Assembly: GCF_006088715.1 (NCBI RefSeq)
Contig: NZ_CP030771.1
Location: 7,996,001-8,060,000 of the forward strand
DNA length: 64,000 bases
Reading direction: 5' to 3'
Origin: Streptomyces sp. YIM 121038
GTDB lineage: Bacteria > Actinomycetota > Actinomycetes > Streptomycetales > Streptomycetaceae
This document shows positions 1,277-62,368 of the stretch, one piece after another. A program made the translations under genes and the position numbers. The number at the start of each line of letters is the position of its first letter. Positions within the stretch are counted from its first letter, which is position 1. The notes under the pieces were generated by a model. That model was not told the DNA's origin. It was given only the letters and a program-made list of their open reading frames with translations, and did no database searches.

Positions 1277-1590
1277 GGAGGACCTTTCGACCGGCGTCCC
1301 TTCACGACAGGAGCGTCGTGAAGCGCTGCCCTCACGCTGGGCACGGGCGGGCGAGCGGCCATCGGCCCCTGGCTGACACTCCCGGCGCCCGGGTACACCC
1401 GTGGGGCTACAGCCGGGGATGACGCTCGGTGCGGCGGGCCTCGAACCCCTCCCCGACCCCTAGGTGGCGAGATCGGCACGGTGACAGGTGCGTTGCCCCC
1501 TAGAGCCGATGACAAGCCTGGTGGCCGCGTGTTTGGGTGGGCCGCCCGTGCATCACAGGCCCCGCGATCCGGGGCGGAGAAGGGGGATCC
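1277..1590. other. Intergenic region between divergent genes, with a perfect inverted repeat
   Basis: This 314-bp gap separates the minus-strand esterase remnant from the plus-strand small secreted protein. It holds a perfect 9-bp inverted repeat, CTTCACGAC (1300-1308) and GTCGTGAAG (1315-1323) with a 6-base loop, just upstream of the esterase start. It could be an operator or a leader hairpin. I see no further gene. The purine-rich GGGCGGAGAAGGGGG (about 1573-1587) is the ribosome binding site of the next gene. Confidence 0.5.
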
Positions 1591-24750: not shown

Positions 24751-25320
24751 ATGAGGCAGAACCCCGCCCGCCGTACCGCCCTCCTGGACGCCGCGATCGA
24801 GGTGCTCGCGCGCGAAGGCTCCCGCGGTCTCACGCTGCGCGCGCTCGACGCGGAGGCGGAGGTCCCCAAGGGCACCGCGAGCAACTACTTCGCCGACCGC
24901 GCGCAGCTCCTTGCCCAGGTCATGCGGCGCATTCAGGAGCGCCTGCTGCCCGCGGAGGACGCGCTCGCCGACACGATGCGCGAGAAGCCCTCCACGGAGC
25001 TGGTGAGCACGCTCCTCAAGCAGCTGGTCGAGCGGATGCGGGCCGACCGCAGCAGCCATCTGGCCCTGCTCGAAATGCGTCTGGAAGCCACCCGCCGCCC
25101 CGAACTCCACGCCGAGCTGAGCCGGTTCATGGCCGACCAGCTGGAGGGCAACATCGGCTTCCACCTGGACGCGGGCCTGCCCGGCGACCGCACCGGCGCC
25201 GTCCTGCTCTACCTCGCCATGCTCGGCCTGATCGTCGACGACCTGACGGTGCCCGAGCTGCTCACGCCGTTCTCGGTCGACACGCTCATCGAGGAGCTGG
25301 CCCGACGGCTGCTGCGCTGA
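24751..25320 (+). CDS. TetR-family transcriptional repressor
   Basis: I use ATG 24751 (MRQNPARRTALLDAAIEVLA). An earlier in-frame ATG at 24718 lies inside the palindrome. The 189-residue protein has the TetR helix-turn-helix in residues 5-50 (AREGSRGLTLRALDAEAEVPKGTASNYFADRAQLL) and an all-helical ligand-binding C-domain (TELVSTLLKQLVERM, LALLEMRLEATRRPEL, AVLLYLAMLGLIVDDL). The KGTASNYF recognition helix is common in actinomycete TetR proteins paired with small oxidoreductases. It is divergent from the DHFR-like gene, which it probably represses together with itself. Ligand unknown. Confidence 0.9.
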   Translation: MRQNPARRTALLDAAIEVLAREGSRGLTLRALDAEAEVPKGTASNYFADRAQLLAQVMRRIQERLLPAEDALADTMREKPSTELVSTLLKQLVERMRADRSSHLALLEMRLEATRRPELHAELSRFMADQLEGNIGFHLDAGLPGDRTGAVLLYLAMLGLIVDDLTVPELLTPFSVDTLIEELARRLLR

Positions 25321-25340
25321 CCGCGCGCGAAGGGCCCTGG

Positions 25341-25387
25341 TAAGGGGCGGCTAGGGGTACTCGGACGCCGGTGCGCCGCCCTACTGT
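25341..25387 (+). promoter_or_regulatory. WAGGGG direct repeat plus -10-like sequence (candidate LAL-type site, no known gene behind it)
   Basis: TAAGGGGCGGCTAGGGGT (25341-25358) has GGGG runs 11 bp apart, the same layout as the sites before PKS1, PKS2 and the amine oxidase. TACTGT (25382-25387) lies 28 bp after the second GGGG. It points into the gap between the convergent TetR and phosphopantetheinyl transferase genes. Function inferred from pattern only. Confidence 0.4.
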
Positions 25388-25393
25388 GGAAAG

Positions 25394-25492
25394 CGGAAGA
25401 GCCGCTTGCCGTGCCGCGGGGCTCTTCGGCCAGAGCCGGTCGCCGGAGCGGCGACTCCTTCCCTTTCCCCCAGGGAAGGACCCGCCGCTCCG
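25394..25492 (+). ncRNA. Structured intergenic element: two strong hairpins, possible small RNA and/or terminator
   Basis: Hairpin 1: GAAGAGCC (25396-25403) with GGCTCTTC (25420-25427). Hairpin 2: CGGAGCGGCG (25444-25453) with CGCCGCTCCG (25483-25492), continued inside by CCTTCCC (25457-25463) with GGGAAGG (25473-25479). The second at least should work as a bidirectional terminator for the TetR and phosphopantetheinyl transferase genes. A promoter-like site just upstream raises the possibility of a short RNA of about 100 nt. Confidence 0.4.
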
Positions 25493-25517
25493 GGCCGGTG
25501 TGCCGCCCGTCCGCCGC

Positions 25518-26264
25518 TCAGCCCCCGGGGCGCAGCGCGATCGCGGTGAGGACCAGGCCGTCGCACGCCAGCCAGCGGCCCGTGAGCTCCTGGGGAAAGC
25601 CGAGGTCCCGTACGGGCGGCAGGATCCGCGCGGTGAACTCGCCCGCCCCCGGATCCGCGGACCGGCCGAAGGTGACGTCGGCCTCCTCGAACCCCAACGG
25701 CCTGCGCGTGAGCGGATACCAGGTCTTGTAGACGCTCTCCTTGGCGCTGAACAGGACCCGGTCCCAGCGCACCGCGGGCCACCGCTCCAGATGTGCCCGT
25801 ACGCGCACCTGTTCCGCGGGCAGCGCCACGGCCTCCAGGACCCCCTCGGGCAGCGGCTCGCCGGGCGTCGCGTCGATGCCGACCGAGCGGACGCGCGCGG
25901 CCGGGGCGACGGCGGCGCCGCGGTAGCCCGCGCAGTGCGTGATGCTGCCGACGACACCGGCGGGCCAGCGCGGCGAGCCCTTGACGTCGGGCAGGATGGC
26001 CGCGGCGGGCCGCCCCAGGTCCTGGAGCGCGCGGTGCGCGCAGTGGCGGCCCGTGGTGAACTCGCGCCGCCGTGCCTCCACCGACCGTGCGATCAGGGCC
26101 TCTTCGTCGGGGTGCAGGACGACGCCCTCCGGGTCGTGGGTGCACTCGCGGCAGTGAACGTCCTCGGGGACGATCCGCGCGAGGAGCGACGGCGGCGCCC
26201 CGCGCGCCCCGCTGTCCTGCGCGTGGCCGTGGCCCGTGCCGTCCCGCGGTGCGCCGACGTTCAC
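25518..26264 (-). CDS. 4'-phosphopantetheinyl transferase (Sfp/EntD type)
   Basis: GTG 26264-26262 overlaps the stop of the upstream gene (GTGA), so translation is coupled. The 248-residue protein has the EntD/PptT-like N-terminus (DEEALIARSVEARRREFTTGRHCAHRAL), then KGSPRWPAGVVGSITHCAGY, the magnesium-binding VGIDATPGEPLPEGV, and the catalytic FSAKESVYKTWYPL (W/F-x-x-K-E-x-x-x-K). Known reaction: transfer of phosphopantetheine from CoA to the serine of carrier proteins. It lies about 2.6 kb left of the LAL regulator, so it could prime the ACP domains of the PKS here (six are complete in the window), but Streptomyces often have one shared Sfp-type enzyme and the left-flank setting does not prove a link. 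Confidence 0.92.
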   Translation of the reverse strand: MNVGAPRDGTGHGHAQDSGARGAPPSLLARIVPEDVHCRECTHDPEGVVLHPDEEALIARSVEARRREFTTGRHCAHRALQDLGRPAAAILPDVKGSPRWPAGVVGSITHCAGYRGAAVAPAARVRSVGIDATPGEPLPEGVLEAVALPAEQVRVRAHLERWPAVRWDRVLFSAKESVYKTWYPLTRRPLGFEEADVTFGRSADPGAGEFTARILPPVRDLGFPQELTGRWLACDGLVLTAIALRPGG

Positions 26265-27538
26265 GGCGTGCCTTCCTTCTCGCGGTCCTGGTCTTCCCGG
26301 CCCTCTTTCTCCTCCCGGGCGCGCGAGCCGTCCGGGTCCTTGCTCCGGCCGCGCGCGGGCAGGTAGACGAGCAGTTCGGTGGCGACGAAGCGCACGACGA
26401 ACGTCGTCAGGAGGGCGATCGCGGTGGCGGGCAGGACCGCCATGTCCGCGCCGTCGACGAGCAGCGCGATGAGGGGGATGCGCAGCAGCAGATCGGCGTT
26501 GGCGAGCAGCGCGAAGCGGCCGAGGCGGTCGGCCCAGTGGCGGTGCTCGCGCCGGCCGCGGAAGAGCAGCAGGTCGATGAGGACGAAGTTCCACAGCACG
26601 CCGAACTGGTTGGCCACGATCTCGGCCGGGAGGTAGTGCAGCCCCATCGCCGTGAGCCCGGCGAGGCCGAGGAGGTTGGGCACGAAGCCGGTCAGGCCGA
26701 TGACGCCGAAGGCGACGATGCGGGCCACGGGGGTCGCGGTGCGCAGGGACACCAGGTGGTTCAGGAAGCGCAGGCCCTCGCGCACGGTCGACTTCGACTC
26801 GCCCGCGTACCGCTCCTGGAAGGAGAAGGGCACCTCGGCGACCGTGCGCGGGCGGCAGCGGATGGCCAGTTCGAGCAGGATCTTGTAGCCCAGCGGCTTG
26901 AGGATGCCGGCCTGGGCGTGCACGGTGGCGCGGCGGATCGCGAAGAACCCGCTCATCGGGTCGCTGATGCCGCGCAGCGCGGAGGGGAAGAGGGACTTGG
27001 TCACCAGGGTCGAGGTGCGCGAGACCGCGACGCGGTAGCGGCCGGAGAGCCCGGCGTGGCTGCCGCCGCCCGCGTACCGGCTGGCGACGACGAGTTCGGC
27101 CCCCGTGCGGCGCCCCGTCTCGATCAGCTCGGGCAGCAGCGACGGCGGGTGCTGGAGGTCGGCGTCCATGACGACGAGCCACTCCGAAGCGGCGGCCTTC
27201 ATGCCCTCCACCACGGCTCCGCTCAGGCCGCCCGTCGGGGTTTCCCTGTGGATGACGTTCACGGGGAACGGGCAGGTGAGGGCGGCGCGCTCGATCGCGG
27301 CCGGAGTGTCGTCGGTGCTGTCGTCGACGAACAGGGCCTCGCAGTCCAGGTGCCCGGGCAGGGCGGCCGCGAGCCGCGTGAGCAACTCCTCGACGTTGTC
27401 CGCCTCGTTGAACGTCGGGATGATCACGGTGACGGTGGTCCGCACCCCGTCCGGAGCGAGGTGGCCGAGGCCTTCGGACACCGTCGCGTCGGCGGCTCGT
27501 TCGGCGTCGGAGCCGGGGCAGGCGCCGGGCGCGGTCAT
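26261..27538 (-). CDS. GT2 glycosyltransferase fused to a GtrA membrane domain
   Basis: ATG 27538-27536 gives 425 residues. Residues about 35-250 form a DPM1/GtrB-like GT2 domain: TVIIPTFNEADNVEELL, ALFVDDSTDDTPAAI, WLVVMDADLQHPPSLLPEL (DAD metal site), VVASRYAGGGSHAGLSG and DPMSGFFAIRR. Residues about 265-395 form a four-helix GtrA domain (ARIVAFGVIGLTGFVPNLLGLAGL, EIVANQFGVLWNFVLIDLLLF). Such proteins load a sugar onto polyprenyl phosphate and may help flip it. The C-terminal 35 residues are charged (KDPDGSRAREEKEGREDQDREKEG). The stop overlaps the phosphopantetheinyl transferase start by 4 bp. A role in cell-envelope or lipid-linked glycosylation is likely; a role in sugar decoration of the polyketide is possible but unproven. 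Confidence 0.85.
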   Translation of the reverse strand: MTAPGACPGSDAERAADATVSEGLGHLAPDGVRTTVTVIIPTFNEADNVEELLTRLAAALPGHLDCEALFVDDSTDDTPAAIERAALTCPFPVNVIHRETPTGGLSGAVVEGMKAAASEWLVVMDADLQHPPSLLPELIETGRRTGAELVVASRYAGGGSHAGLSGRYRVAVSRTSTLVTKSLFPSALRGISDPMSGFFAIRRATVHAQAGILKPLGYKILLELAIRCRPRTVAEVPFSFQERYAGESKSTVREGLRFLNHLVSLRTATPVARIVAFGVIGLTGFVPNLLGLAGLTAMGLHYLPAEIVANQFGVLWNFVLIDLLLFRGRREHRHWADRLGRFALLANADLLLRIPLIALLVDGADMAVLPATAIALLTTFVVRFVATELLVYLPARGRSKDPDGSRAREEKEGREDQDREKEGTP

Positions 27539-27588
27539 CGGGGCACGCTTCCGGGTCGGAGCGCGCTCGGTGTCTGCTTCTTCGCCAT
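27535..27588 (-). CDS. Possible 17-residue leader peptide overlapping the GT2-GtrA start
   Basis: ATG 27588-27586 follows GAGGACGACG and encodes MAKKQTPSALRPGSVPR, ending TGA (27537-27535) that overlaps the next ATG as ATGA. The layout (own ribosome site, 4-bp overlap) fits a short translated leader that couples to the downstream gene, whose own ribosome site is weak. It could also be chance. Confidence 0.35.
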   Translation of the reverse strand: MAKKQTPSALRPGSVPR

Positions 27589-28847
27589 CGTCGTCCTCTA
27601 CGGGTCTGCGCGCGTGCGTCCCACGCGAGCGCGTCACATCGGCGTGCCCTGGCCGGCAGGCGTTTCCGGGAGGATCACGGGTGACCGCCCGTGGGGTCGT
27701 GGCACTGCGGGGCGCGTCGGGCCCGGGGAGGGCGGGGTCGCCGACGACCGCTGGCGTCACTGTCGTACCGGTGATTCCTCCCGCCGGAGGCTAGCCGTGG
27801 CCCGTGGCGCCCTCCACCCCTATCCGTCCCCTAGGGCCTGCCCGACGGGACGGCGCGGCGTCCCGTCGGACACGCCCTGGCGGTGGGTCCGGTGCCCGCG
27901 GCGGTGAAGCCGGAGTGTGGCCCAGCGCACAAAAAAGGGGCTTTGTGGCGACGGCCGGGCGTTCGGCCGAGTTCGCATGTGCCGGAGGCGAGTTGCTCCT
28001 CCCGTTCGCGCCGCCAAAGCGCGCGGCGGCCCGGAAACACGGGCGTAACAATGGGGCGCGACCGGCACGCCGGTGCGCCGACGCTCCCGGCCGTGCGGCG
28101 GGGCTTCCGCCGGTAACTCGGCCGGGACGTCGGGCGGGCCGGTCGCGTCCCGGGAACTTTCACAGGGAATTTTGCCGTCGGATTGCCGCTGGATTGTTTT
28201 TGGTTTCCATTCGGGAGAGGCCCCGTTGGCGTGCCCGTGGATGCGTTTGCCTAACGCGTTCTTAACGCCCGCTGCGGCGGGCGCGCGGATGGCCGACCGC
28301 CGATGGGCCGTCAAATCGGTGTGCGCCGCCGCGCTTTGGGTAGCCGGGGCGACGGGGGATCATGCGGTGGCGGCCTTCGGAGGGGAGCCCCCGGGGGGTA
28401 GTGCCGGGTCTGCCGGGCTTGTCGGGATCGGACGCCCATGTGGGCTGTGGCCAGGCATGTTTCCGGACAGTGTGGCGCGATGGGCGCTGGGTCATGACGC
28501 CGTGGCCAGTTGAGTCTTCTCCTTTCTCACAATTGGAGTTTAAGGCTCCGCATGTGACGGGCCGATCGCCCGGGCCTATATCACAGACATGGCCGGAGTG
28601 GGGAGGGCTGAACGTTGCGAGTCATCGTGGATTTGGGGGGTGGGCTCACTTCTTTCGGGGCTACCTCGCCGTCAAGTTTCAGTCATAGTTGTGTTGTTGA
28701 CTGAGTGCCCCAAGAGCCCCGGCGGAGATATTTGGAATATGCCCTGGTATCCTGCTTCAGGCTCCTGAGGCAACTTGATGAGTGCGATATGCGAATAAGG
28801 CGCCCAGTGCAGTTTGCGATAATTTCTTACGGGGAGGAAACCGCACT
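27589..28847. other. Long non-coding region left of the PKS cluster activator
   Basis: About 1.26 kb without a convincing gene. The left half is GC-rich; some open frames occur but show no domain and no ribosome site. From about 28140 to 28850 the DNA is clearly richer in A+T than its surroundings. It contains TCAGTCA/TGACTGA (28679-28685 and 28698-28704, 12-base loop), ATATT-TGG-AATAT (28728-28740), and GATAAT (28818-28823), a possible -10 for the LAL gene just before its GGGGAGG ribosome site (28831-28837). This is the probable regulatory region of the activator and the left border of the cluster. Confidence 0.6.
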
Positions 28848-31697
28848 ATGAGCCTGGTCGAGCGAGTCGATGAGTGGGCTCTCTTGGAGGACGTTCTGGC
28901 GAACAGCGCGGAGCGGCCTTCCCGTGTTGTGTTGATAAGAGGTCCGGTGGCCACCGGCAAGAGCGAGTTGCTGAACAGCGTCGCCGACGAGGCGGAGGCC
29001 CGAGGCCTGACCGTGCTCAAGGCGACGGGTTTACGGGCCGAGCGCACCACGCCCATGGCGGTCTTCGGTCAACTGCTCCTCCACGCCGACCAGGTGGCGG
29101 AGCAGGACGCCGGAGCGACCGCGCGCGTGGCGCGTCTGCTCGACGACGCCAAGTTCACCGCCATGCTCCGCGATCCCGACAGCGAGCGCGAGGAGCACGT
29201 ACGCGCCCATGTGATGCGGTCCCTGACCATGGCCCTGCGGGCCCTGGCCCGCGGCGGACCGCTGGCCGTCCTCGTGGACGACGTCCAGTACGCCGACATC
29301 CCGTCCCTCCAGTGCCTGCAGTACGCCATGCGGGAGCTGCGGGCCAAGCCCGTCGTGATCGTCCTCGGCCTGCGGACCGGGCCGCACGCCGAACGGCCCA
29401 TGTTCAGCGCGGAACTGCTGCGCCACCCCCGCCTGACCCAGCTGCGGCTCACCACCTTCGGCGAGTCCGGCACGGCGGAGCTGCTGCGCGCGCACCTCGA
29501 CGAGGCCGCGGCACACGGCCTCGCGCCCGACGTCCACCGGCTCAGCGGCGGCAACCCCCTCCTGGTGCGGGCCCTGATCCACGACCTGCTCGCCCACGGG
29601 CCGCTCGACCACGACCAGCGGGCCACCGGGTCCGGCACCGGCAACGCCCTGCCCACCGGGCGCACCGTGCCCGCGGGCGACGCCTACCGGCAGTCCGTGC
29701 TCAGCTGCCTGCACCGCGGCGAGGACGCCGTCCTCGCCGTCGCCCGCGGCATCGCGGTCCTGGACGACGCCGCGTCCGAGGCGACGCTCGCCGACCTGCT
29801 CGACCTCGACCGCGAGACCGTCGCGCGCGGCCTGCGCGCGCTCGCGGCGGCCGGTCTCACCGACGAGGGCGCCTTCCGCCACCCCCTGGCGCGGACCGCC
29901 GTGCTCGACGACCTGGCGCGCGAGGACCGCATCGGGCTGCACCGGCGCGCGGCCCTGCTGCTGCGCCGCCACGGCGCCGAACCGCCCGTCGTGGCCCGGC
30001 ACATCGTCGCCACCGGCGAGGTCGAGGGCGCCGAGTCCCTCGACGTGCTGTGGGAGACGGCCACCCGCGCCCGGCGCGACGAGGACGTCTCGCTCGCCAT
30101 CGCCTGCCTCCACCTGGCCGACGAGAGCTGCCCGCGCGGGGAGCGGCGCAGCGAGATCCTCGCCGAACTGGCCCGCCTCGCCTGGCGGGTGCGGCCCTCG
30201 ACCCTCGGACCGCACCTGGGCGCGCTGCGCGCCGCCTTCGACGAGGGCTGGCTCGCCGAGCAGGCCGTGCCCGTGCTGATCTCGGGCCTGCTGTGGCAGG
30301 GCAGGTTCGACGAGGCCGCCGAGGTCGCCCGCAAGGGCCAAGTCGCCTACGAGGGCGCCTCCGCCGTCAGCGGCTACCTGGCGTCCGGCGCGGTGCGCAC
30401 CACCTACCCGACGCTGCGCGAGCGCATCGGCGCCGACAACTGGCCCGCGCCGCACAGCACCTGGGACGTCCTGACGACACCGGGCTGCGACGCCCGCGGC
30501 CGCGTCGGCGCCGCCCTCAACGCCGTCCTGTCCCGCGGCGTGGACCCGCACGCCGCCGACCTCGCCGAGACCGTCCTGCAGGGCACCCGGCTGAGCGACG
30601 CCACCCTGGAGACGCTCACCGCCGCCCTGTCGGTCCTCATCTACTGCGACCGTCTCGGCCGGGCCGCGCACTGGTGCGACGCGCTCCTTCGCGAGGCCAC
30701 CCGGCTCGGCGGGCCGGGCTGGCAGGCGCCGCTGTCCGCGATCAGGGCGACCATCGCCCTGCGCCAGGGCAGCGCGCCGGACGCCGTGCGGTACGCGCTC
30801 ACCGCCCTGTCGTGGATCTCGCCCCAGGGCTGGGGCGTCGGCATCGGCTCGATCCTGGCCACCCTGGTCTCGGCGCACACCGCGATGGGCCAGTACGAGC
30901 AGGCCATGGCCTATCTGGACCACCACATCCCGGAAGGCCTCCCGGAGACCCGCTACGGCCTGGAACTCAGCTATGCGCGCGGTCAGCTCTACGCCGCCAT
31001 GGGGCGGGTGCGCCCGGCCCTCGACGACTTCCTCACCTGCGGCGAGCTGATGACCCGCTGGGGCATCGACCAGCCGGCGCTGGTGCCGTGGCGGTCGGCG
31101 GCCGCGGAGATGCACCTGCGCACGGGCGGCGAGGCCGAGGCCGACCGGCTCGTCAGGGAGCAACTGGCCAAGTGCGGCCCGGGGCAGTCCCGCACCCGCG
31201 CCCAGACGCTGCGCGTGCTCGCCGAGGTGTCGGGCCTGCGGCGGCACCACCACGCGCTGCACGAGGCGATCGAGGAACTGGAGAAGTGCGAGGACCGGCT
31301 GGAACTGGTGCGGGCCCTGGGGGCGCTGAGCCGTTCCCATCACGCCCTGGGCGACCTGGGCCAGGCGCGGATGATGGCGCGGCGGGCGTGGCGCATCGCG
31401 CGCGACGCGCGGGCGGAGACGCTGTGCGAACAGCTGCTGCCGTACGGCGACGGCGAGGCGGGTGCGGCGGAGCGCCCGGCGCGGGGCGACGAGGCCTGCC
31501 CGGCGGAGGAACTGACCGACGCGGAGCGGCGCGTGGCGTCCCTGGCGTCGTTCGGGCACAGCAACCGCGAGATAGCGCGCAAGCTGTTCATCACCGTCAG
31601 TACGGTCGAACAGCATCTGACGCGGGTCTACCGGAAGTTGAACGTCTCCCGCCGCAAGGATCTCCCGCACGATCTGCTGGCGGACACGGCGTGCTGA
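28848..31697 (+). CDS. LAL-family (large LuxR) pathway activator with a TTA codon
   Basis: ATG 28848 lies 10 bp after GGGGAGG; an upstream in-frame ATG at 28782 lacks a ribosome site. The 949-residue protein has an AAA/STAND ATPase domain at the N-terminus (Walker A GPVATGKS, residues 32-39; Walker B LAVLVDDVQYAD, about 140). A long TPR-like helical middle follows, then a LuxR helix-turn-helix at the end (LTDAERRVASLASFG, NREIARKLFITVSTVEQHLTRVYRKLNV). LAL proteins are the usual switches of polyene and macrolide clusters. Codon 62 (29031-29033) is TTA, the codon read by the bldA tRNA, so translation should await the developmental switch. It is the only pathway-type activator in the window and the likely reader of the WAGGGG repeats. 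Confidence 0.93.
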   Translation: MSLVERVDEWALLEDVLANSAERPSRVVLIRGPVATGKSELLNSVADEAEARGLTVLKATGLRAERTTPMAVFGQLLLHADQVAEQDAGATARVARLLDDAKFTAMLRDPDSEREEHVRAHVMRSLTMALRALARGGPLAVLVDDVQYADIPSLQCLQYAMRELRAKPVVIVLGLRTGPHAERPMFSAELLRHPRLTQLRLTTFGESGTAELLRAHLDEAAAHGLAPDVHRLSGGNPLLVRALIHDLLAHGPLDHDQRATGSGTGNALPTGRTVPAGDAYRQSVLSCLHRGEDAVLAVARGIAVLDDAASEATLADLLDLDRETVARGLRALAAAGLTDEGAFRHPLARTAVLDDLAREDRIGLHRRAALLLRRHGAEPPVVARHIVATGEVEGAESLDVLWETATRARRDEDVSLAIACLHLADESCPRGERRSEILAELARLAWRVRPSTLGPHLGALRAAFDEGWLAEQAVPVLISGLLWQGRFDEAAEVARKGQVAYEGASAVSGYLASGAVRTTYPTLRERIGADNWPAPHSTWDVLTTPGCDARGRVGAALNAVLSRGVDPHAADLAETVLQGTRLSDATLETLTAALSVLIYCDRLGRAAHWCDALLREATRLGGPGWQAPLSAIRATIALRQGSAPDAVRYALTALSWISPQGWGVGIGSILATLVSAHTAMGQYEQAMAYLDHHIPEGLPETRYGLELSYARGQLYAAMGRVRPALDDFLTCGELMTRWGIDQPALVPWRSAAAEMHLRTGGEAEADRLVREQLAKCGPGQSRTRAQTLRVLAEVSGLRRHHHALHEAIEELEKCEDRLELVRALGALSRSHHALGDLGQARMMARRAWRIARDARAETLCEQLLPYGDGEAGAAERPARGDEACPAEELTDAERRVASLASFGHSNREIARKLFITVSTVEQHLTRVYRKLNVSRRKDLPHDLLADTAC

Positions 31698-31802
31698 GCC
31701 GCCCGTGGCGTTCTGACAACGTTGTGCTGACCGCTGATGACCACCAGTGGGGGGTGGCGGCCGCGGTCGTCGCCCCTGCGGGCGCGAGGGTGCGGAGCTC
31801 CG
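31698..31802. other. Convergent gap with a 10-bp palindrome
   Basis: Between the LAL gene and the convergent ABC-like gene. ACAACGTTGT (31716-31725) is a perfect palindrome and CCACC/GGTGG (31741-31757) can form a weak hairpin. No strong terminator is seen. Confidence 0.4.
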
Positions 31803-32549
31803 TCAGCGGGCGGTCGGCAGACAGCCGCAGCGCACCTGCCCGTCACAGACCATGAACAGACGGTCCGTCATGCGCCGGGCGACCTCCCTGGAACCGGAGG
31901 AGAACACCACGGTCCCGGTCGACGCCGCGTAGCGGCGAAGCACCCGGTGGAGGATCGTCTCCGACACCTCGTCCACGTCGTCCAGGGGGCGGCACAGCAA
32001 CAGCAGCTTCGGCACGTGCAGCAGCGCGCAGCCGACAGCGGTGCGCGAGCGCTGGCCCGGCGTGAGCCGGGCCACGGACGTGCGCTCCACGGCCCGCAGG
32101 CCCAGGGCTTCCGCTAAGTCCGTGGCGCGCCCGGCGGCGGTCTCCGGGGGCAGACCTCGGCGCAGACCGGCGGCCATCAGGGCATCGTGGACGGGCACTT
32201 CGGGCAACGGCATGCCCGCGGGGACCACCCCGACGAGGCGCCGCAGGGCATCGGGATCGGTCCGGGCGTCCACGCCGTGCACGGTGACGCGGCGGTCCGG
32301 ACCGCCGTCGTCGAGCAGCCGGTCCAGGAAACGGTCCGCCGAGCCGTCGTCCGAGACGACCGCGAGGCACGCGTGGCGCTCGACCCGCAGCAGGCGCTCG
32401 TGGCCGGGCGCCCCTTCGTGCGGGGGCGTCCCGGCGCCGTCCGCGCGCCGCACCTCCAGGGCCATCGGCTCCAGCCGGGCTCCATCGGGCGCGGCGCCCG
32501 GACGGTGGTCGTGCACCGCGAACCTTCGGCTGTCCGGCCCTGGATGCAT
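31803..32549 (-). CDS. Degenerate ABC-ATPase-like protein (catalytic motifs lost), with a TTA codon
   Basis: ATG 32549-32547 follows GAGGAGGCCTC. The 248-residue protein can be laid along a DrrA-type ATPase: LAVVSDDGSADRFLDRLL stands where LLGPNGAGKSTLLRLL would be, VTVHGVDARTDPDALRRLVGVVPAGMPLPE matches the Q-loop region, ARLTPGQRSRTAVGCALLHVP the signature (L-S-G-G-Q-R-x-R), and KLLLLCRPLDDVDE the Walker B L-L-F-L-D-E-P-x-x-x-L-D. So the Walker A G-K-S/T and the Walker B D-E are both gone, while the fold and length remain. It cannot be a normal ATPase; a binding or regulatory role is likely. It is intact, with a good ribosome site and an in-frame TTA (codon 145, 32117-32115). It sits between the activator and the oxidase gene. 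Confidence 0.75.
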   Translation of the reverse strand: MHPGPDSRRFAVHDHRPGAAPDGARLEPMALEVRRADGAGTPPHEGAPGHERLLRVERHACLAVVSDDGSADRFLDRLLDDGGPDRRVTVHGVDARTDPDALRRLVGVVPAGMPLPEVPVHDALMAAGLRRGLPPETAAGRATDLAEALGLRAVERTSVARLTPGQRSRTAVGCALLHVPKLLLLCRPLDDVDEVSETILHRVLRRYAASTGTVVFSSGSREVARRMTDRLFMVCDGQVRCGCLPTAR

Positions 32550-33058
32550 GAGGCCTCCTCTGGATAGTGATTGTTGAACAATTCGGCACGCGGGAACTGA
32601 TCCGGGCGTGTGGTGCGGCCACCATAGATCATTTCAAGGCGGCCCCTGAGTTTCGTACAGTCTTCAGGATCGAAGCCGCGCTACTAAAGTACTCATTGCG
32701 TCCCGTGCAACATTTCGTGCCCCTTGAGAACCCTCGTTCGGGAGCGCGTTACTGTGCTCCGAGAGTGAACGCAACAGTGACCGCGCGCGGTTCCGGGTGT
32801 GCCGGCCATGTGCCTCTAGGAGCCGTAAGGGGATGTTGAGGGGTTTCTCCGTCCCCCGAAGGCACCGAGATAATCAAGGGCACCGTCAGACGTGCCGTGT
32901 ATCGGAGGCGATTCGCGGGCCCGACCGGCCCCCGTGGGGCAGGGTCACGGGCCGTGCTGATCGCGGACCCACCTCCTGCTGCCGCAGCCCGGCTCCCCCC
33001 CCGCGGCCGTCTGGAACGTCCGCCGGGCCGGCCTCCACCACGGTCAGAGGAGTATCCG
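32550..33058. promoter_or_regulatory. Divergent regulatory region between the ABC-like and amine oxidase genes
   Basis: About 500 bp, richer in A+T than the genes around it. It holds ATTGTT-G-AACAAT (32570-32582, perfect 6-1-6) just upstream of the ABC-like gene, and the WAGGGG repeat with its -10 on the oxidase side (32828-32874, listed separately). No gene is evident; the frame of the oxidase is open back to 32897, but the predicted extension is Arg/Pro-rich and has no ribosome site. Confidence 0.55.
32828..32874 (+). promoter_or_regulatory. WAGGGG direct repeat and -10 before the amine oxidase gene
   Basis: AAGGGGATGTTGAGGGGT has GGGG runs at 32829 and 32840 (11 bp apart). GATAAT (32869-32874) lies 29 bp after the second run and is a good -10. 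Same layout as the sites before PKS1 and PKS2. Suggested binding site for the LAL activator (inference). Confidence 0.5.
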
Positions 33059-34738
33059 TTGGTTGCCCTCAACGGTAGTTCGCGTCTCGGAACAGCAGAT
33101 TCCATCACCATGCTGGGCCCGGACTTTCCCTTCGCGTACGACGAATGGCTGGCGAGCCCGCACGGCCTCGGCGAAATTCCGGCAGCGGAGTTCGGCACGC
33201 CCGTCGCCGTGATCGGGGCGGGGATTTCGGGCCTCGTCACCGCGTACGAGCTGATGCGCCTCGGGCTGCGGCCCGTCGTCCACGAGGCGGGCCCGGTCGG
33301 CGGACGCATGCGCTCCGCCGCCTTCGAGAGCCGCCCGGACGCCGTGGCCGAACTCGGCGCCATGCGCTTCCCCGCGTCGGCGACGGCCCTGCGCCACTAC
33401 ATGGACCTCGTCGGCCTGCGCACCCGGCCCTTCCCCAACCCGCTCACCGAGGCCAGCGGCTCCACCGTCGTCGCCCTCGGCGACGACCGGCACTACGCCC
33501 GGCACGCGGGCGAGCTCCCCGACGTCTACCAGGAAGTCGGCATGGCCTGGGACAAGGCCCTGCAGGAGCACGCCGAGCTGTTCGCCATGGACGACGCGAT
33601 CCGCCGCCGCGACACCGCCGCCATCAAAGCCATCTGGAACCCGCTGGTACGCGCCCTGGACGACCAGTCCTTCTACGGCTTCATCGCCCGCTCGCCCGCT
33701 TTCCAGTCCTTCAAGTACCGCGAGATATTCGGTCAGGTCGGCTTCGGCGCGGGCGGCTGGGACACCGACTTCCCCAACTCCATCCTGGAGATCCTGCGCG
33801 TCGTCTACACCGGCGCGGAGGACGACCACCAGCTCGTCGTCGGCGGCTCCCAGCAGCTGCCGCTGCGCCTGTGGTCGCACGCCCCCGACGACCTCGCGCA
33901 CTGGCCGGCCGGCACCTCCCTGGAGTCGCTGCACCGCGGCGGCCCCCGCGGCGGCGTCGCCCGCCTTCAGCGCGGCCCGCGCGGCATCACCGTCCACGGG
34001 CACGACGGCACCGCCCACACCTACCCGGCGGCCGTCTTCACCCCGCAGAAGCGGACCCTGGTCACCAACGTCCGCTGCGACCCCGCGCTGCTGCCCACCC
34101 CCGTGTGGACGGCCGTGGAGCGCAGCCACTACATGGGCTCGTCCAAGCTCTTCGTCCTCGTCGACCGCCCCTTCTGGCGCGAGCGCGACCCGCGCACCGG
34201 CCGCGAGGTGATGAGCACGACCCTCACCGACCGCATGCCCCGGGGCGTCTACCTCTTCGACGAGGGACCCGAGCGCCCCGGCGTCATGTGCCTGTCGTAC
34301 ACCTGGAACGACGACTCCCTGAAGATGGCCCCGCTGACCGCCGAGGAGCGCCTGGAGGGCGTCCTGGACGCCCTCGCCGCCATCTACCCGGACGTCGACA
34401 TCCGCTCCCGCGTCATCGCGCCGCCCCGCACGGTGACCTGGGAGACCGACCCCCACTTCCAGGGCGCCTTCAAGGCGAACCTGCCGGGCCACTACCGCTA
34501 CCAGCGGCGCCTGTTCACGCACTTCATGCAGGACGGGCTGGCCCGGGACCAGCGCGGCTTCTTCCTCGCGGGCGACGACGTCTCCTGGACCGCGGGCTTC
34601 GCCGAGGGCGCCGTCACGACCGGCCTCAACGCCTACTGGGGCGTCCTTCGCCACCTCGGCGGCGCCACCCAGCCGCTGAACCCCGGCCCCGGCGACCTGT
34701 TCGCCTCGCTCGCGCCGATCGACCTGCCCGAGGACTGA
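33059..34738 (+). CDS. Flavin amine oxidase, arginine/tryptophan 2-monooxygenase-like (starter-unit enzyme candidate)
   Basis: I chose TTG 33059, 6 bp after AGAGGAG; an in-frame ATG at 33110 has no ribosome site. The product has 559 residues (542 from the ATG). FAD binding: VAVIGAGISGLVTAYELMRLG near residue 50, then GGRMRS and ELGAMRFPASA. The C-terminal FLAGDDVSWTAGFAEGAVTTGLNAYWGVL is the signature of amino-acid 2-monooxygenases (tryptophan IaaM type and the arginine oxidases of guanidino-polyketide clusters). Known chemistry: oxidative decarboxylation of the amino acid to an amide. Here arginine to 4-guanidinobutanamide would feed the lone loading ACP of PKS1 (inference). The needed amidohydrolase, CoA ligase and acyltransferase are not in the window. 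A WAGGGG repeat lies upstream; a strong terminator follows. Confidence 0.85.
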   Translation: MVALNGSSRLGTADSITMLGPDFPFAYDEWLASPHGLGEIPAAEFGTPVAVIGAGISGLVTAYELMRLGLRPVVHEAGPVGGRMRSAAFESRPDAVAELGAMRFPASATALRHYMDLVGLRTRPFPNPLTEASGSTVVALGDDRHYARHAGELPDVYQEVGMAWDKALQEHAELFAMDDAIRRRDTAAIKAIWNPLVRALDDQSFYGFIARSPAFQSFKYREIFGQVGFGAGGWDTDFPNSILEILRVVYTGAEDDHQLVVGGSQQLPLRLWSHAPDDLAHWPAGTSLESLHRGGPRGGVARLQRGPRGITVHGHDGTAHTYPAAVFTPQKRTLVTNVRCDPALLPTPVWTAVERSHYMGSSKLFVLVDRPFWRERDPRTGREVMSTTLTDRMPRGVYLFDEGPERPGVMCLSYTWNDDSLKMAPLTAEERLEGVLDALAAIYPDVDIRSRVIAPPRTVTWETDPHFQGAFKANLPGHYRYQRRLFTHFMQDGLARDQRGFFLAGDDVSWTAGFAEGAVTTGLNAYWGVLRHLGGATQPLNPGPGDLFASLAPIDLPED

Positions 34739-34764
34739 CCGGCCGCGGCCACCACGGCACGCGA

Positions 34765-34796
34765 AAGGGCCCCGGAGCACTTGCTCCGGGGCCCTT
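34765..34796. terminator. Strong bidirectional terminator
   Basis: AAGGGCCCCGGAGCA (34765-34779) pairs with TGCTCCGGGGCCCTT (34782-34796): 15 bp, followed by CTTC. It lies between the oxidase and the convergent ABC permease gene. Confidence 0.93.
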
Positions 34797-34847
34797 CTTC
34801 CGTGCGCTCCTCGTCCGTGTGCGCTCAGGGCGTTCCGCCCGCGCCTG

Positions 34848-35663
34848 TCACGACTGCGCGCGCCGCAGGAAGCCGCGGATGCCGATCGCCGCGAACAGCG
34901 CGATCGAACCGACGAGCACGATCAGCGTGATCGGCAGCGGCACGTGCTCCACGTTCGGCGACGTCACCGCCCGCATGCCCTCACTGGCGTACGACAGCGG
35001 GTTGGCGCCGCAGATCACCTGGAACCAGCGGACCTCGTCGAGCGCCACGAGCGGGAACTGCGTCGAGCCCGTGAACAGCAGCGGCATCAGGACGAGCGTG
35101 AACATCACGTCCACCTTGTCGCTGCTCACGGACGTCCCCAGGCACAGGCCGATCGACGCCCCGGCGAGCGCGCCGAGCGCGGCGATCCCGAGGGCGGGCA
35201 CCGTCCGGCTGATCGGCCACGACAGGTCCAGGAGCACCATGCCGACCGGCGTCATCATCAGCGACGCCACGAATCCGTACAGCGCACCGAAAAGGATCTT
35301 CTCCACGGCCACCAGACGCAACGAGATGGGCGAAAGGAGCCGGTCCTCGATCTCACGCGTGTACGAGAAGTCCACGACGAGCGGCAGCGCCGTGTTCTGC
35401 ATGCCGCCGAGGAATCCGTTCAGGGCGAGCACACCGGGCAGCAGCACGGAGCTGTAGTCGCCGTCCACATAGCCCGCGTCGCTCAGCAGCACGCCGAACA
35501 CGAACAGCGTGAAGAACGGCTGGATGATGGCCTGGCCGATGAACGTGGGGAACTGGCGCAGGGCGACGAACACATCGCGCCACATGATGGCGCGGAAGGT
35601 GTGTATCTGGCGCGAGGGCCGCGAAGCCTGAGTCGCCGAAGCTGTCGCAGTCGTCGCTGTCAT
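34848..35663 (-). CDS. ABC-2 type permease (DrrB-like) of an exporter
   Basis: The 271-residue protein has an N-terminal cytoplasmic part and six membrane segments (for example FPTFIGQAIIQPFFTLFVFGVLL, SVLLPGVLALNGFLGGMQ, FGALYGFVASLMMTPVGMVLL, VMFTLVLMPLLFTGSTQFPL, ITLIVLVGSIALFAAIGI). The loop VDFSYTREIEDRLLSPISLRLVAVEKI is the E-E/D-R-x-x-x-x-P motif of DrrB/ABC-2 permeases. Its start overlaps the stop of the ATPase gene by 4 bp (ATGA), so the two form one unit. Likely exports, or protects against, the polyketide made by the neighbouring PKS. Confidence 0.92.
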   Translation of the reverse strand: MTATTATASATQASRPSRQIHTFRAIMWRDVFVALRQFPTFIGQAIIQPFFTLFVFGVLLSDAGYVDGDYSSVLLPGVLALNGFLGGMQNTALPLVVDFSYTREIEDRLLSPISLRLVAVEKILFGALYGFVASLMMTPVGMVLLDLSWPISRTVPALGIAALGALAGASIGLCLGTSVSSDKVDVMFTLVLMPLLFTGSTQFPLVALDEVRWFQVICGANPLSYASEGMRAVTSPNVEHVPLPITLIVLVGSIALFAAIGIRGFLRRAQS

Positions 35664-36634
35664 CGCAGATTCTTTCCGGTGAGGTGGAGGAAAACGTCTT
35701 CCAGGGAGACCTTTCCGATGCCGACATCCGTGACCCGGTAGTCCCGTTCGGTGAGCGCGGCGAGCGCCGGCTGCAGCGCCTCGACCGGCTCGGTGTCCGT
35801 GTAGATGCGGAACCGGCAGGCGTCCGCGGGCGGCGCCTCCGGGTCGACCTCGTCGACCTGGCGCACCCCCGGCAGATCGGCGAGCAGCTTGGCCACTGGC
35901 GCCGGGCCCTGCGCGGAGCGCACCGTCAGGGCGAGCGTCGAGTGCGCGGGCAGCAGCGTGCCCAGGCCCTCGGGGGTGTCCAGGGCGAGCAGGGTGCCCC
36001 GGTCCACGATGCCGACGCGGTCGCAGAGCTTGGCGGCCTCGTCCATGTCGTGGGTGGTGACGACCACCGTCACGCCGCGCTCGGCGAGTTCGGCGACCCG
36101 CTCGTGCACGAACAGGCGCGCCTGCGGGTCGAGTCCGGTCGCGGGCTCGTCCAGGAACAGCACGCTCGGCCGGTGGATCAGCGCCCGCGCGATCATCACG
36201 CGCTGCACCTGCCCGCCGGACATGTCGTCGACCTTCGACTTGCGGTAGTCGGCCAGGCCCATCTGCTCCAGGAGCTCATCGGCCCTGCGCCGCCGCTCGG
36301 CACGCGGGATGCCGTGATAGGTGGCGTGGAAGAGCAGGTTCTGCCGCACCGAGAGCGAGCGGTCGAGGTTGTTGCGCTGCGGCACCACCGCGAGCACCCG
36401 CTTCGCCTCTCTCGGCCGTGCGACGACGTCCACGCCGTCGATCAGGACCTCGCCCGACGTGGGCCGCACCCGGGTGGTCATCATGCCCACCGTCGTGCTC
36501 TTGCCCGCGCCGTTGGGACCGAGCAGGCCGAAGACCTCACCCCGGTGCACCTCGAAGCTCAGACCGTCGACCACGCGGCGTGCGTTGGCCGCGTACTGTT
36601 TCACCAGATTCTCAACCCGGACAGCGTATTCCAC
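35660..36634 (-). CDS. ABC exporter ATPase (DrrA-like)
   Basis: GTG 36634-36632 starts a 324-residue protein: VRVENLVKQYAANARRVVDGLSFEV, Walker A GPNGAGKST, Q-loop VPQRNNLD, signature MSGGQVQRVMIARALI, Walker B VLFLDEPATGLDP and H-loop TTHDMDEA, followed by the C-terminal DrrA-type regulatory segment (DVGIGKVSLEDVFLHLTGKNLR). All catalytic residues are present, unlike the degenerate ABC-like protein 3 kb away. It is coupled to the permease gene and divergent from PKS1, with a shared 278-bp promoter region, which fits co-expression of export and synthesis. Confidence 0.93.
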   Translation of the reverse strand: MEYAVRVENLVKQYAANARRVVDGLSFEVHRGEVFGLLGPNGAGKSTTVGMMTTRVRPTSGEVLIDGVDVVARPREAKRVLAVVPQRNNLDRSLSVRQNLLFHATYHGIPRAERRRRADELLEQMGLADYRKSKVDDMSGGQVQRVMIARALIHRPSVLFLDEPATGLDPQARLFVHERVAELAERGVTVVVTTHDMDEAAKLCDRVGIVDRGTLLALDTPEGLGTLLPAHSTLALTVRSAQGPAPVAKLLADLPGVRQVDEVDPEAPPADACRFRIYTDTEPVEALQPALAALTERDYRVTDVGIGKVSLEDVFLHLTGKNLR

Positions 36635-36700
36635 GCTGCTGACCCTAGAGGCGGGCGGGAATCCCGAACACCCCTGTATCTGCCCGGCCCCACGGCCCGG

Positions 36701-36746
36701 TAGGGGGTTATTAGGGGTGGGGCTCGCGGATGCGCGCTGTTACCGT
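36701..36746 (+). promoter_or_regulatory. WAGGGG direct repeat and -10 of the PKS1 promoter
   Basis: TAGGGGG-TTAT-TAGGGGT (36701-36718): GGGG runs at 36703 and 36714, 11 bp apart. TACCGT (36741-36746) lies 27 bp after the second run and can serve as -10, giving a leader of about 160 nt before the ATG at 36913. Best candidate for activation by the LAL protein. Confidence 0.55.
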
Positions 36747-36755
36747 GCAACGGTA
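36741..36755. promoter_or_regulatory. Perfect palindrome over the possible PKS1 -10
   Basis: TACCGT-GCA-ACGGTA (6-3-6). Its left arm is the candidate -10. It could be a repressor site that shuts off PKS1, or a start-site hairpin. It lies about 107 bp upstream of the divergent ABC ATPase gene. Confidence 0.5.
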
Positions 36756-36912
36756 TTGTGGGCAAATTTATCTGAAGTGCGTCCAGGAATACGGAGATTG
36801 ATTTCCGAAGCGCACTCCCTGAATTTTCCCCGCGTACACGGACGGGGTCATACCCCGGCCTACAGTCAGGCAATTCTGAAAGCCATCACGGCCGGTGCTA
36901 CGGAGTGGAACA

Positions 36913-52574
<15,662 letters not shown>

Positions 52575-52575
<1 letters not shown>

Positions 52576-52589: not shown

Positions 52590-52617
52590 AATGCGCGGCA
52601 ATTCGTAAAGGGGTCCG

Positions 52618-52663
52618 TAGGGGGAGGGTAGGGGTTGTTGACCTACCCTCCCCCGGATGTGAT
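52618..52663 (+). promoter_or_regulatory. WAGGGG direct repeat before PKS2, overlapping a 13-bp hairpin
   Basis: TAGGGGG-AGGG-TAGGGGT (52618-52635): GGGG runs at 52620 and 52631, 11 bp apart, the same layout as before PKS1. TGTGAT (52658-52663) is a weak -10 at the same 27-bp distance. The repeat also forms the left arm of a perfect hairpin, GGGGGAGGGTAGG (52620-52632) with CCTACCCTCCCCC (52642-52654). So the element may act both as terminator or attenuator for PKS1 and as activator site for PKS2. AAGGAG (52683-52688) is the ribosome site of PKS2. Confidence 0.55.

Positions 52664-52699: not shown

Positions 52700-62359
<9,660 letters not shown>

Positions 62360-62368
<9 letters not shown>

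Follow-up and report, generated by a model that had tools for sequence, protein, structure and literature searches.

The cluster and its LAL gene

The window, a stretch of 64,000 nucleotides, corresponds to positions 7996001-8060000 of the larger contig of an 11.1-Mb genome and contains the initial portion of a very large type I polyketide cluster. Judged by their size, eight consecutive PKS genes of 3222-5284 codons extend up to genome position 8142774; the labels of PKS1 and PKS2 come from an earlier finding and from size. Genes were called with a simple composition-based finder, which predicted 80 genes in a 204-kb region. Besides the genes listed in Table 1, the cluster carries genes for a PMT_2 mannosyltransferase-like protein, an acyl-CoA ligase, a VinK-like acyltransferase, a P450, an agmatinase-family hydrolase and a thioesterase. 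With the oxidase, PPTase and GT2 genes they form a set that may point to arginine-primed macrolactones such as desertomycin. Downstream of the cluster, two nearly identical histidine kinase genes (genome 8151329-8152525 and 8153408-8154667) lie in inverted arrangement, with a LuxR-type response regulator between them.

The cluster also encodes an activator of the LAL group, membership of which was taken to mean ATPase and HTH domains in a protein of about 900-1000 amino acids. The window LAL has the N-terminal ATPase and the C-terminal LuxR-type HTH of MalT-type LALs, and both AAA_16 and GerE score over the Pfam cut-offs. Codon 62 of its gene is TTA (window 29031-29033). In Streptomyces, a TTA codon suggests bldA-dependent translation.

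Table 1. Genes and TAGGGG-type sites of the cluster region (window numbering unless marked genome)
Feature	Position	Strand	Sequence or product	Remark
Paired copy	1446..1462	-	TAGGGG-N5-GAGGGG	no -10-like hexamer at 23 nt
TetR-type gene	24751-25320			in 6 of 7 loci searched
10-bp-period copy	25342..25357	+	AAGGGG-N4-TAGGGG	between converging genes
-10-like hexamer of this copy	25382-25387		TACTGT
PPTase gene	25518..26264	-	4'-phosphopantetheinyl transferase	scanned within ORF 25518-27182
GT2 gene	26261..27481	-	GT2/GtrA glycosyltransferase	first gene behind the operator at 27833-27817
-10-like, GT2/PPTase	27793-27788	-	TAGCCT	23 nt beyond second half-site
Putative operator, GT2/PPTase	27817..27833	-	TAGGGG-N5-TAGGGG	5' of GT2/GtrA and PPTase genes; exact match
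LAL gene	28848..31697	+	AAA_16 and C-terminal LuxR/GerE HTH	likely start ATG 28848
Putative operator, oxidase	32827..32843	+	AAGGGG-N5-GAGGGG	5' of amine oxidase
-10-like, oxidase	32869-32874		GATAAT	25 nt from second half-site
Oxidase gene	32897..34738	+	flavin amine oxidase	start 32897 or 33110
Putative operator, PKS1	36701..36717	+	TAGGGG-N5-TAGGGG	5' of PKS1
-10-like, PKS1	36741-36746		TACCGT	23 nt from second half-site
PKS1 reading frame	36895..52575	+	5226 aa
Putative operator, PKS2	52608..52634	+	AAGGGG/TAGGGG/TAGGGG	triple; half-site starts 52608, 52618, 52629
-10-like, PKS2	52658-52663		TGTGAT	weak candidate
PKS2 reading frame	52700..62368	+	3222 aa
Putative operator, later PKS gene	genome 8087890		TAGGGGN5TAGGGG	outside window; promoter-placed; exact
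Putative operator, ligase	genome 8144639		TAGGGGN5TAGGGG	outside window; promoter-placed, 5' of acyl-CoA ligase; exact
Paired copy	genome 8159707-8159723	-	TAGGGG-N5-GAGGGG	not an evident promoter

Tandem repeats at the cluster promoters

The original prediction placed pairs of GGGG runs, with starts 11 bp apart, before PKS1 (36703/36714), PKS2 (52620/52631) and the amine oxidase (32829/32840), and the DNA confirms each of them. Their description as mostly TAGGGG or WAGGGG holds for PKS1 and PKS2 but not for the oxidase, the second half of which departs from WAGGGG. A fourth copy, given as 25344/25355, lies in fact at 25344/25354, with a period of 10 bp. Three 11-bp sites had been missed, that of the GT2/PPTase genes and two outside the window. 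Six cluster promoters are marked, those of the GT2/PPTase genes, the oxidase, PKS1, PKS2, a later PKS gene and the acyl-CoA ligase, some of them within the run of PKS genes. In all six, the last two half-sites are 11 bp apart, in arrays of two or three. Direct reading shows the third half-site 10 bp further up, as AAGGGG (PKS2), TAGGGG (later PKS gene) and CAGGGG (ligase).

Five of the six promoters share the anatomy TAGGGG-N5-TAGGGG-N23-hexamer, the hexamer being a -10 candidate that reads TAGCCT, TACCGT, TAGCGT, TAGCTT or, poorly, TGTGAT (PKS2); at the oxidase the distance is 25 nt. These distances of 23-25 nt agree with the earlier placing of the hexamer 27-29 bp after the second run once that figure is measured from the first G of the run. 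Provided that transcription starts match the predicted -10 hexamers, the final half-site would end near -36, just upstream of -35. A scan of 25000-37100 for the sigma-70 consensus found no -35/-10 pair (0.2 expected by chance).

Four more paired copies (window 25342 and 1446, genome 8087823 and 8159707) have no clear promoter role for a known gene, and no paired site was found in the LAL gene's own upstream region. The copies at genome 8159707-8159723 and window 1446-1462 flank the cluster and outscore the oxidase site in a matrix scan. An AAGGGG-N5-TAGGGG at genome 8087823-8087839 (minus strand; position 1449, minus strand, of locus L013) precedes the operator of the later PKS gene by about 50 bp, on the opposite strand, is followed by an A+T-rich stretch and is also present in relatives L176, L186 and L195. 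Behind the 25342 copy (window 25342-25475), TACTGT precedes two potential hairpins and then a tail rich in T, all lying between converging genes. Both hairpins fold in the window sequence and do not fold alike in ortholog locus L068; perhaps a short LAL-controlled RNA is made here.

Within the window, WAGGGGN5WAGGGG with at most one mismatch has 8 matches, which represent six places (three overlap at PKS2 and one place is the 10-bp copy), versus a mean of 0.41 and a largest count of 2 in 100 shuffles. The loose WAGGGG pattern with one mismatch gave 173 genome-wide matches versus 171 for its reversed control and was rejected as a genome-wide test. Since the loose form is not specific by itself, the comparisons relied on exact TAGGGGN5TAGGGG matches and on the spacing of intergenic pairs. 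The exact form occurs six times in the 11.1-Mb genome, five of them at the cluster (8023817-8144655, 121 kb). With up to one mismatch, it has 21 matches, of which nine lie inside 7997446-8159723 (162 kb). A matrix built from the six promoters, where the original prediction had proposed four sites, gave nine hits in the 204-kb region, six of them the sites used to train it, and no hit in 1.2 Mb of control loci.

In DNA of 74% GC, pairs of G runs could simply be a by-product of base composition. The shuffles and the clustering of the one-mismatch matches speak against this, and composition does not favour the TAGGGG pattern, as its reversed control gave 46 genome matches with one mismatch versus 21. 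The repeats might otherwise reflect the shared ancestry of PKS promoters, in line with the common descent of orthologous clusters and with kinship among several of the 40 LAL loci described below. However, the PKS1 spacer varies among orthologs (GTTAT, TTTGT, CCGCT, CTGGT, CAGCT, TTTCT) while both half-sites are constant, and PKS loci of genomes lacking LAL matches yield no pair at 10-12 bp. Composition or ancestry is thus the least probable of the explanations considered here, and can nearly be dismissed.

Conservation and arrays beside other LAL genes

Orthologous clusters were found at nine loci, in named relatives that are all Streptomyces, with LALs 64-96% identical to that of the window. 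As the original prediction had proposed, related clusters with LAL genes were scanned: the GT2, oxidase and PKS1 sites and their 11-bp period are all kept in seven of the nine loci (L068-L074, hence 7 of 7 of these). The other two (L075 and L076, LAL 64-66% identical) have one exact TAGGGG-N5-TAGGGG each, likened to the GT2 site by the adjacent TGGAGG and a -10-like hexamer at 23 nt. The seven ortholog genomes hold 8, 7, 5, 6, 5, 6 and 5 exact matches, five in each being of the cluster types and 0-3 being others; types were recognised by the spacer, plus the -10 where flanking DNA was examined, and membership on short contigs was assigned by likeness. Genomes G213, G239 and G163 of the LAL-positive set described below are evidently the same as ortholog genomes G299, G302 and G303 (identical positions) and do not count as independent. 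The -10 distance is 23 or 24 nt at the PKS1 and PKS2 ortholog sites, the latter carrying the spacer GAGGG. The 10-bp copy is present in L068 and appears in L072 as AAGGGC-N4-TAGGGG with TACGGT; no 10-bp AGGGG pair was seen in the other five loci of L068-L074.

Of 295 genomes from the genus, that of the window included, 117 contained relatives of the LAL (E up to 1e-60), with the two best candidates per genome scored. Neighbourhoods of up to 20 kb were examined around 40 LAL genes 37-45% identical to that of the window, including the second LAL of the same genome (L107). They form two sets of 20. In the first, one locus (G039) had an exact site known beforehand; most of the second were picked once sites near those genes had been seen. 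Intergenic AGGGG pairs in the 40 loci peak at 10, 11 and 12 bp (18, 20 and 10 pairs) and again at 20, 21 and 22 bp (6, 17 and 7). Coding DNA of the same loci, nearly four times as much, has 4, 1 and 3 pairs at 10, 11 and 12 bp. The totals at 10-12 bp are 48 in 159 kb of intergenic versus 8 in 622 kb of coding DNA.

Three controls of 20 stretches each, picked non-blind, were compared: arbitrary stretches taken at round coordinates from the same genomes; neighbourhoods of AAA_16 proteins (LuxR HTH in 17, all with other recognition helices, and none found in 3); and stretches, from eight LAL-negative genomes, that contain or adjoin a PKS dehydratase hit. With masked stretches excluded, pairs at 10-12 bp among intergenic AGGGG number 15/251 and 31/331 in the LAL sets versus 5/312, 1/218 and 0/196 in the respective controls. 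Loci with such a pair number 11/20 and 14/20 versus 4/20, 1/20 and 0/20. TAGGGG-TAGGGG pairs at 10-12 bp number 4 and 18 (22 in total) versus none in any of the three controls (60 loci). Taken by itself, the less favourably chosen LAL set is still above every control (Fisher P 0.006, 0.0006 and 0.0002), on pairs that are not independent, as some loci are related and triple arrays are counted twice. The stretch examined lacks an AGGGG pair at 10-12 bp in 15 of the 40 LAL neighbourhoods. At 22-25 nt from the site, a -10-like TANNNT follows 7/33 paired sites near other LALs versus 10/378 and 3/283 single AGGGG, so that the -10 distance near other LALs is regular only in part.

At genome scale, 40 LAL-positive genomes, the top of the LAL-match ranking, hold 46 exact sites in 26 genomes (37 sites when three ortholog genomes are excluded). 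Forty genomes that are LAL-negative at the cut-off used, 20 shown to be matchless and 20 absent among the matches listed, hold 7 in 7. In 13 near-complete genomes, 10 of 20 exact sites have a LAL gene no more than 100 kb away versus 0.61 expected, where five of the ten belong to one cluster family of related strains, two overlap and only best-match LALs were considered. Among the 46 sites, 23 have no listed LAL within 100 kb on their own contig, some of them being on short contigs.

The period of the arrays differs between loci and is usually 10 to 12 bp, and 10, 12 and 13 bp occur at loci other than the cluster. Among the matches listed for TAGGGGN{1,10}TAGGGG in 40 genomes, 10-bp pairs lie near many LALs. 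Set against a tree of the LALs, the period is 10 in a group ending in AYRK, 10 and 11 (as triples) in an IYRK group, 11 in the window's group and 13 in L111 and L114, with no pair at 15 of 52 tips and with few loci overall, some near-identical. This is suggestive of a period (10, 11, 12 or 13 bp) that tracks the LAL subgroup across L107-L146. The window's genome itself combines a cluster LAL with 11 bp at six promoters and a second LAL (L107) with a 10-bp pair nearby.

On the protein side, the most conserved 16-residue stretch of the whole LAL is TVSTVEQHLTRVYRKL, with a conservation of 0.93 versus 0.51 overall in 43 LALs (a set with the window LAL but with neither the nine ortholog loci nor shorter frames). 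Median pairwise identity is 87.5% in this recognition-helix stretch versus 36% outside the HTH, and STVEQHLT is essentially invariant. The HTH was located by a tolerant pattern that matched 52 of 53 LAL-like frames, so that little selection for the helix was introduced. One shared recognition helix fits one shared half-site. Comparison of the HTH with the PDB returned response-regulator and other LuxR-type relatives (VraR, DevR, NarL, GerE and others) and no LAL.

These observations bear on who reads the repeats. A nearly fixed 23 nt to the -10 would also suit an extended -35 region recognised by a special sigma factor in the absence of any activator. However, each array has two or three half-sites at helical spacing, pair distances peak a second time at 20-22 bp, and the end of the last half-site lies upstream of -35; arrays are also absent from the 20 PKS loci of LAL-negative genomes. 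We regard such a promoter class as highly improbable. Just as improbable is a different regulator that travels with these LALs, either a second LAL or the TetR-type protein, although the TetR gene lies within the cluster and has the distribution given in Table 1. TetR operators are usually palindromes, which counts against TetR as the binder. Moreover, the factor common to the 40 other loci, by their selection, is a LAL, and arrays accompany LALs of one recognition helix while being rare at AAA_16 genes with a different LuxR helix.

A putative LAL operator

Taken together, the conservation of the site, its period and its -10 distance in orthologs, the arrays beside 25 of 40 distant LALs and the near-invariant helix argue that the tandem TAGGGG repeats are the operator of the cluster LAL and of a group of Streptomyces LALs sharing the STVEQHLT helix, a reading to which we give a probability of about 0.85. 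The operator proposed in the original prediction is thereby supported, and its link to the LAL becomes a strong inference from sequence. The accompanying idea of an activator bound as a tandem dimer near -35 gains from conservation and co-occurrence and is refined to two or three half-sites with a period of mostly 10-12 bp. More tentatively, and less probably than not, one half-site and one helix may serve the whole LAL group, clusters being kept apart by array period and half-site number, which would follow the LAL lineage.

Known systems give both likenesses and differences. The 3' repeat of SARP operators lies some 8 bp before the -10, and the repeats described here end 23-25 nt before it. 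A SARP (OmpR-like) activator or PhoP could nevertheless be considered for direct repeats of 11 bp, as found in the six promoters: SARP heptamers recur with this period, PimR operators comprising two or three direct repeats about one helix turn apart, and PhoP boxes are built of 11-nt direct repeat units (accessible parts of PMC3367932 and PMC6784220, respectively). In those same parts, however, the PimR heptamer is CGGCAAG and the PHO-box unit is GTTCACCCGCC, both unlike TAGGGG. PimR thus differs in half-site, in -10 distance and in protein family. In addition, a Pfam scan of 38 reading frames (shadow frames included; the region has 80 predicted genes) detected no SARP-type domain, and the arrays follow LAL genes. 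Recognition by SARP or PhoP therefore seems very unlikely, if marginally less so than the alternatives above.

The LAL reading finds its closest counterpart in MalT. LALs are ATPases related to MalT that end in an HTH of the LuxR type, and E. coli MalT likewise uses G-rich asymmetric sites near -35: in the accessible text of PMC7567727, its boxes read GGGGA(T/G)GAGG, one of them overlapping -35, and in that of PMC4381067, multimerisation leads to cooperative box binding and polymerase recruitment. The half-site here is instead TAGGGG, in head-to-tail arrays of mostly 10-12 bp, and the oxidase site is the only one to read GGGGATGTTGAGG. The MalT protein of Actinoplanes sp. SE50/110 recognises TCATCC-5nt-GGATGA, the 3' end of which lies 34.4 +/- 1.0 nt before the mapped start (PMC7567727, accessible text). 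There too, two hexamers 5 nt apart occur at many promoters of one large region, although as an inverted repeat, in contrast with the direct repeat TAGGGG-5nt-TAGGGG. As orientation and hexamer both differ from the Actinoplanes sites, the cluster sites are not MalT boxes, but by analogy they may function in a similar way. Their distance of 23-25 nt to the -10 is consistent with a MalT-type box ending 34-36 nt before the start, with starts predicted from the -10.

AveR, MilR, NemR, SlnR, FkbN and others are, like the present LAL, cluster-situated LAL activators of polyketide clusters. In the consulted portions of reviews and papers, AveR is reported to control every promoter of its own cluster directly, SalJ, the salinomycin activator, to bind promoters of its own cluster, and overexpression of SamR to have woken a silent cluster. 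The portions examined gave no half-site arrays for AveR, MilR, NemR, SlnR or FkbN; in two papers from the literature search, TAGGGG or AGGGG strings occurred in primers only. The open-access literature, likewise covered in part, gave no TAGGGG LAL operator, and an earlier description is possible in the original NemR, StaR, SlnR and AveR articles, which were outside its scope.

A mechanism can be proposed on this basis. LAL molecules would probably multimerise through their STAND ATPase, like MalT, so that their LuxR-type DNA-binding domains could line up side by side along one face of the DNA, occupying two or three TAGGGG half-sites spaced about one helical turn. With the last half-site ending about 36 bp before the expected start, a LAL bound there could touch RNA polymerase; the promoters concerned have no recognisable -35 hexamer. 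Sites also stand inside the cluster, before PKS2, the later PKS gene and the ligase, and may serve as relay promoters by which the LAL drives more than 100 kb of biosynthetic genes.

LALs switch on many polyketide clusters, yet the literature covered gave no general operator for them. If the operator and the recognition helix have been read correctly, LAL-controlled promoters could be listed and cluster borders found from them. The same reading could guide the choice of the LAL to overexpress for waking clusters and the design of LAL-responsive reporters. It would also link MalT-type multimer binding to antibiotic control in actinomycetes.
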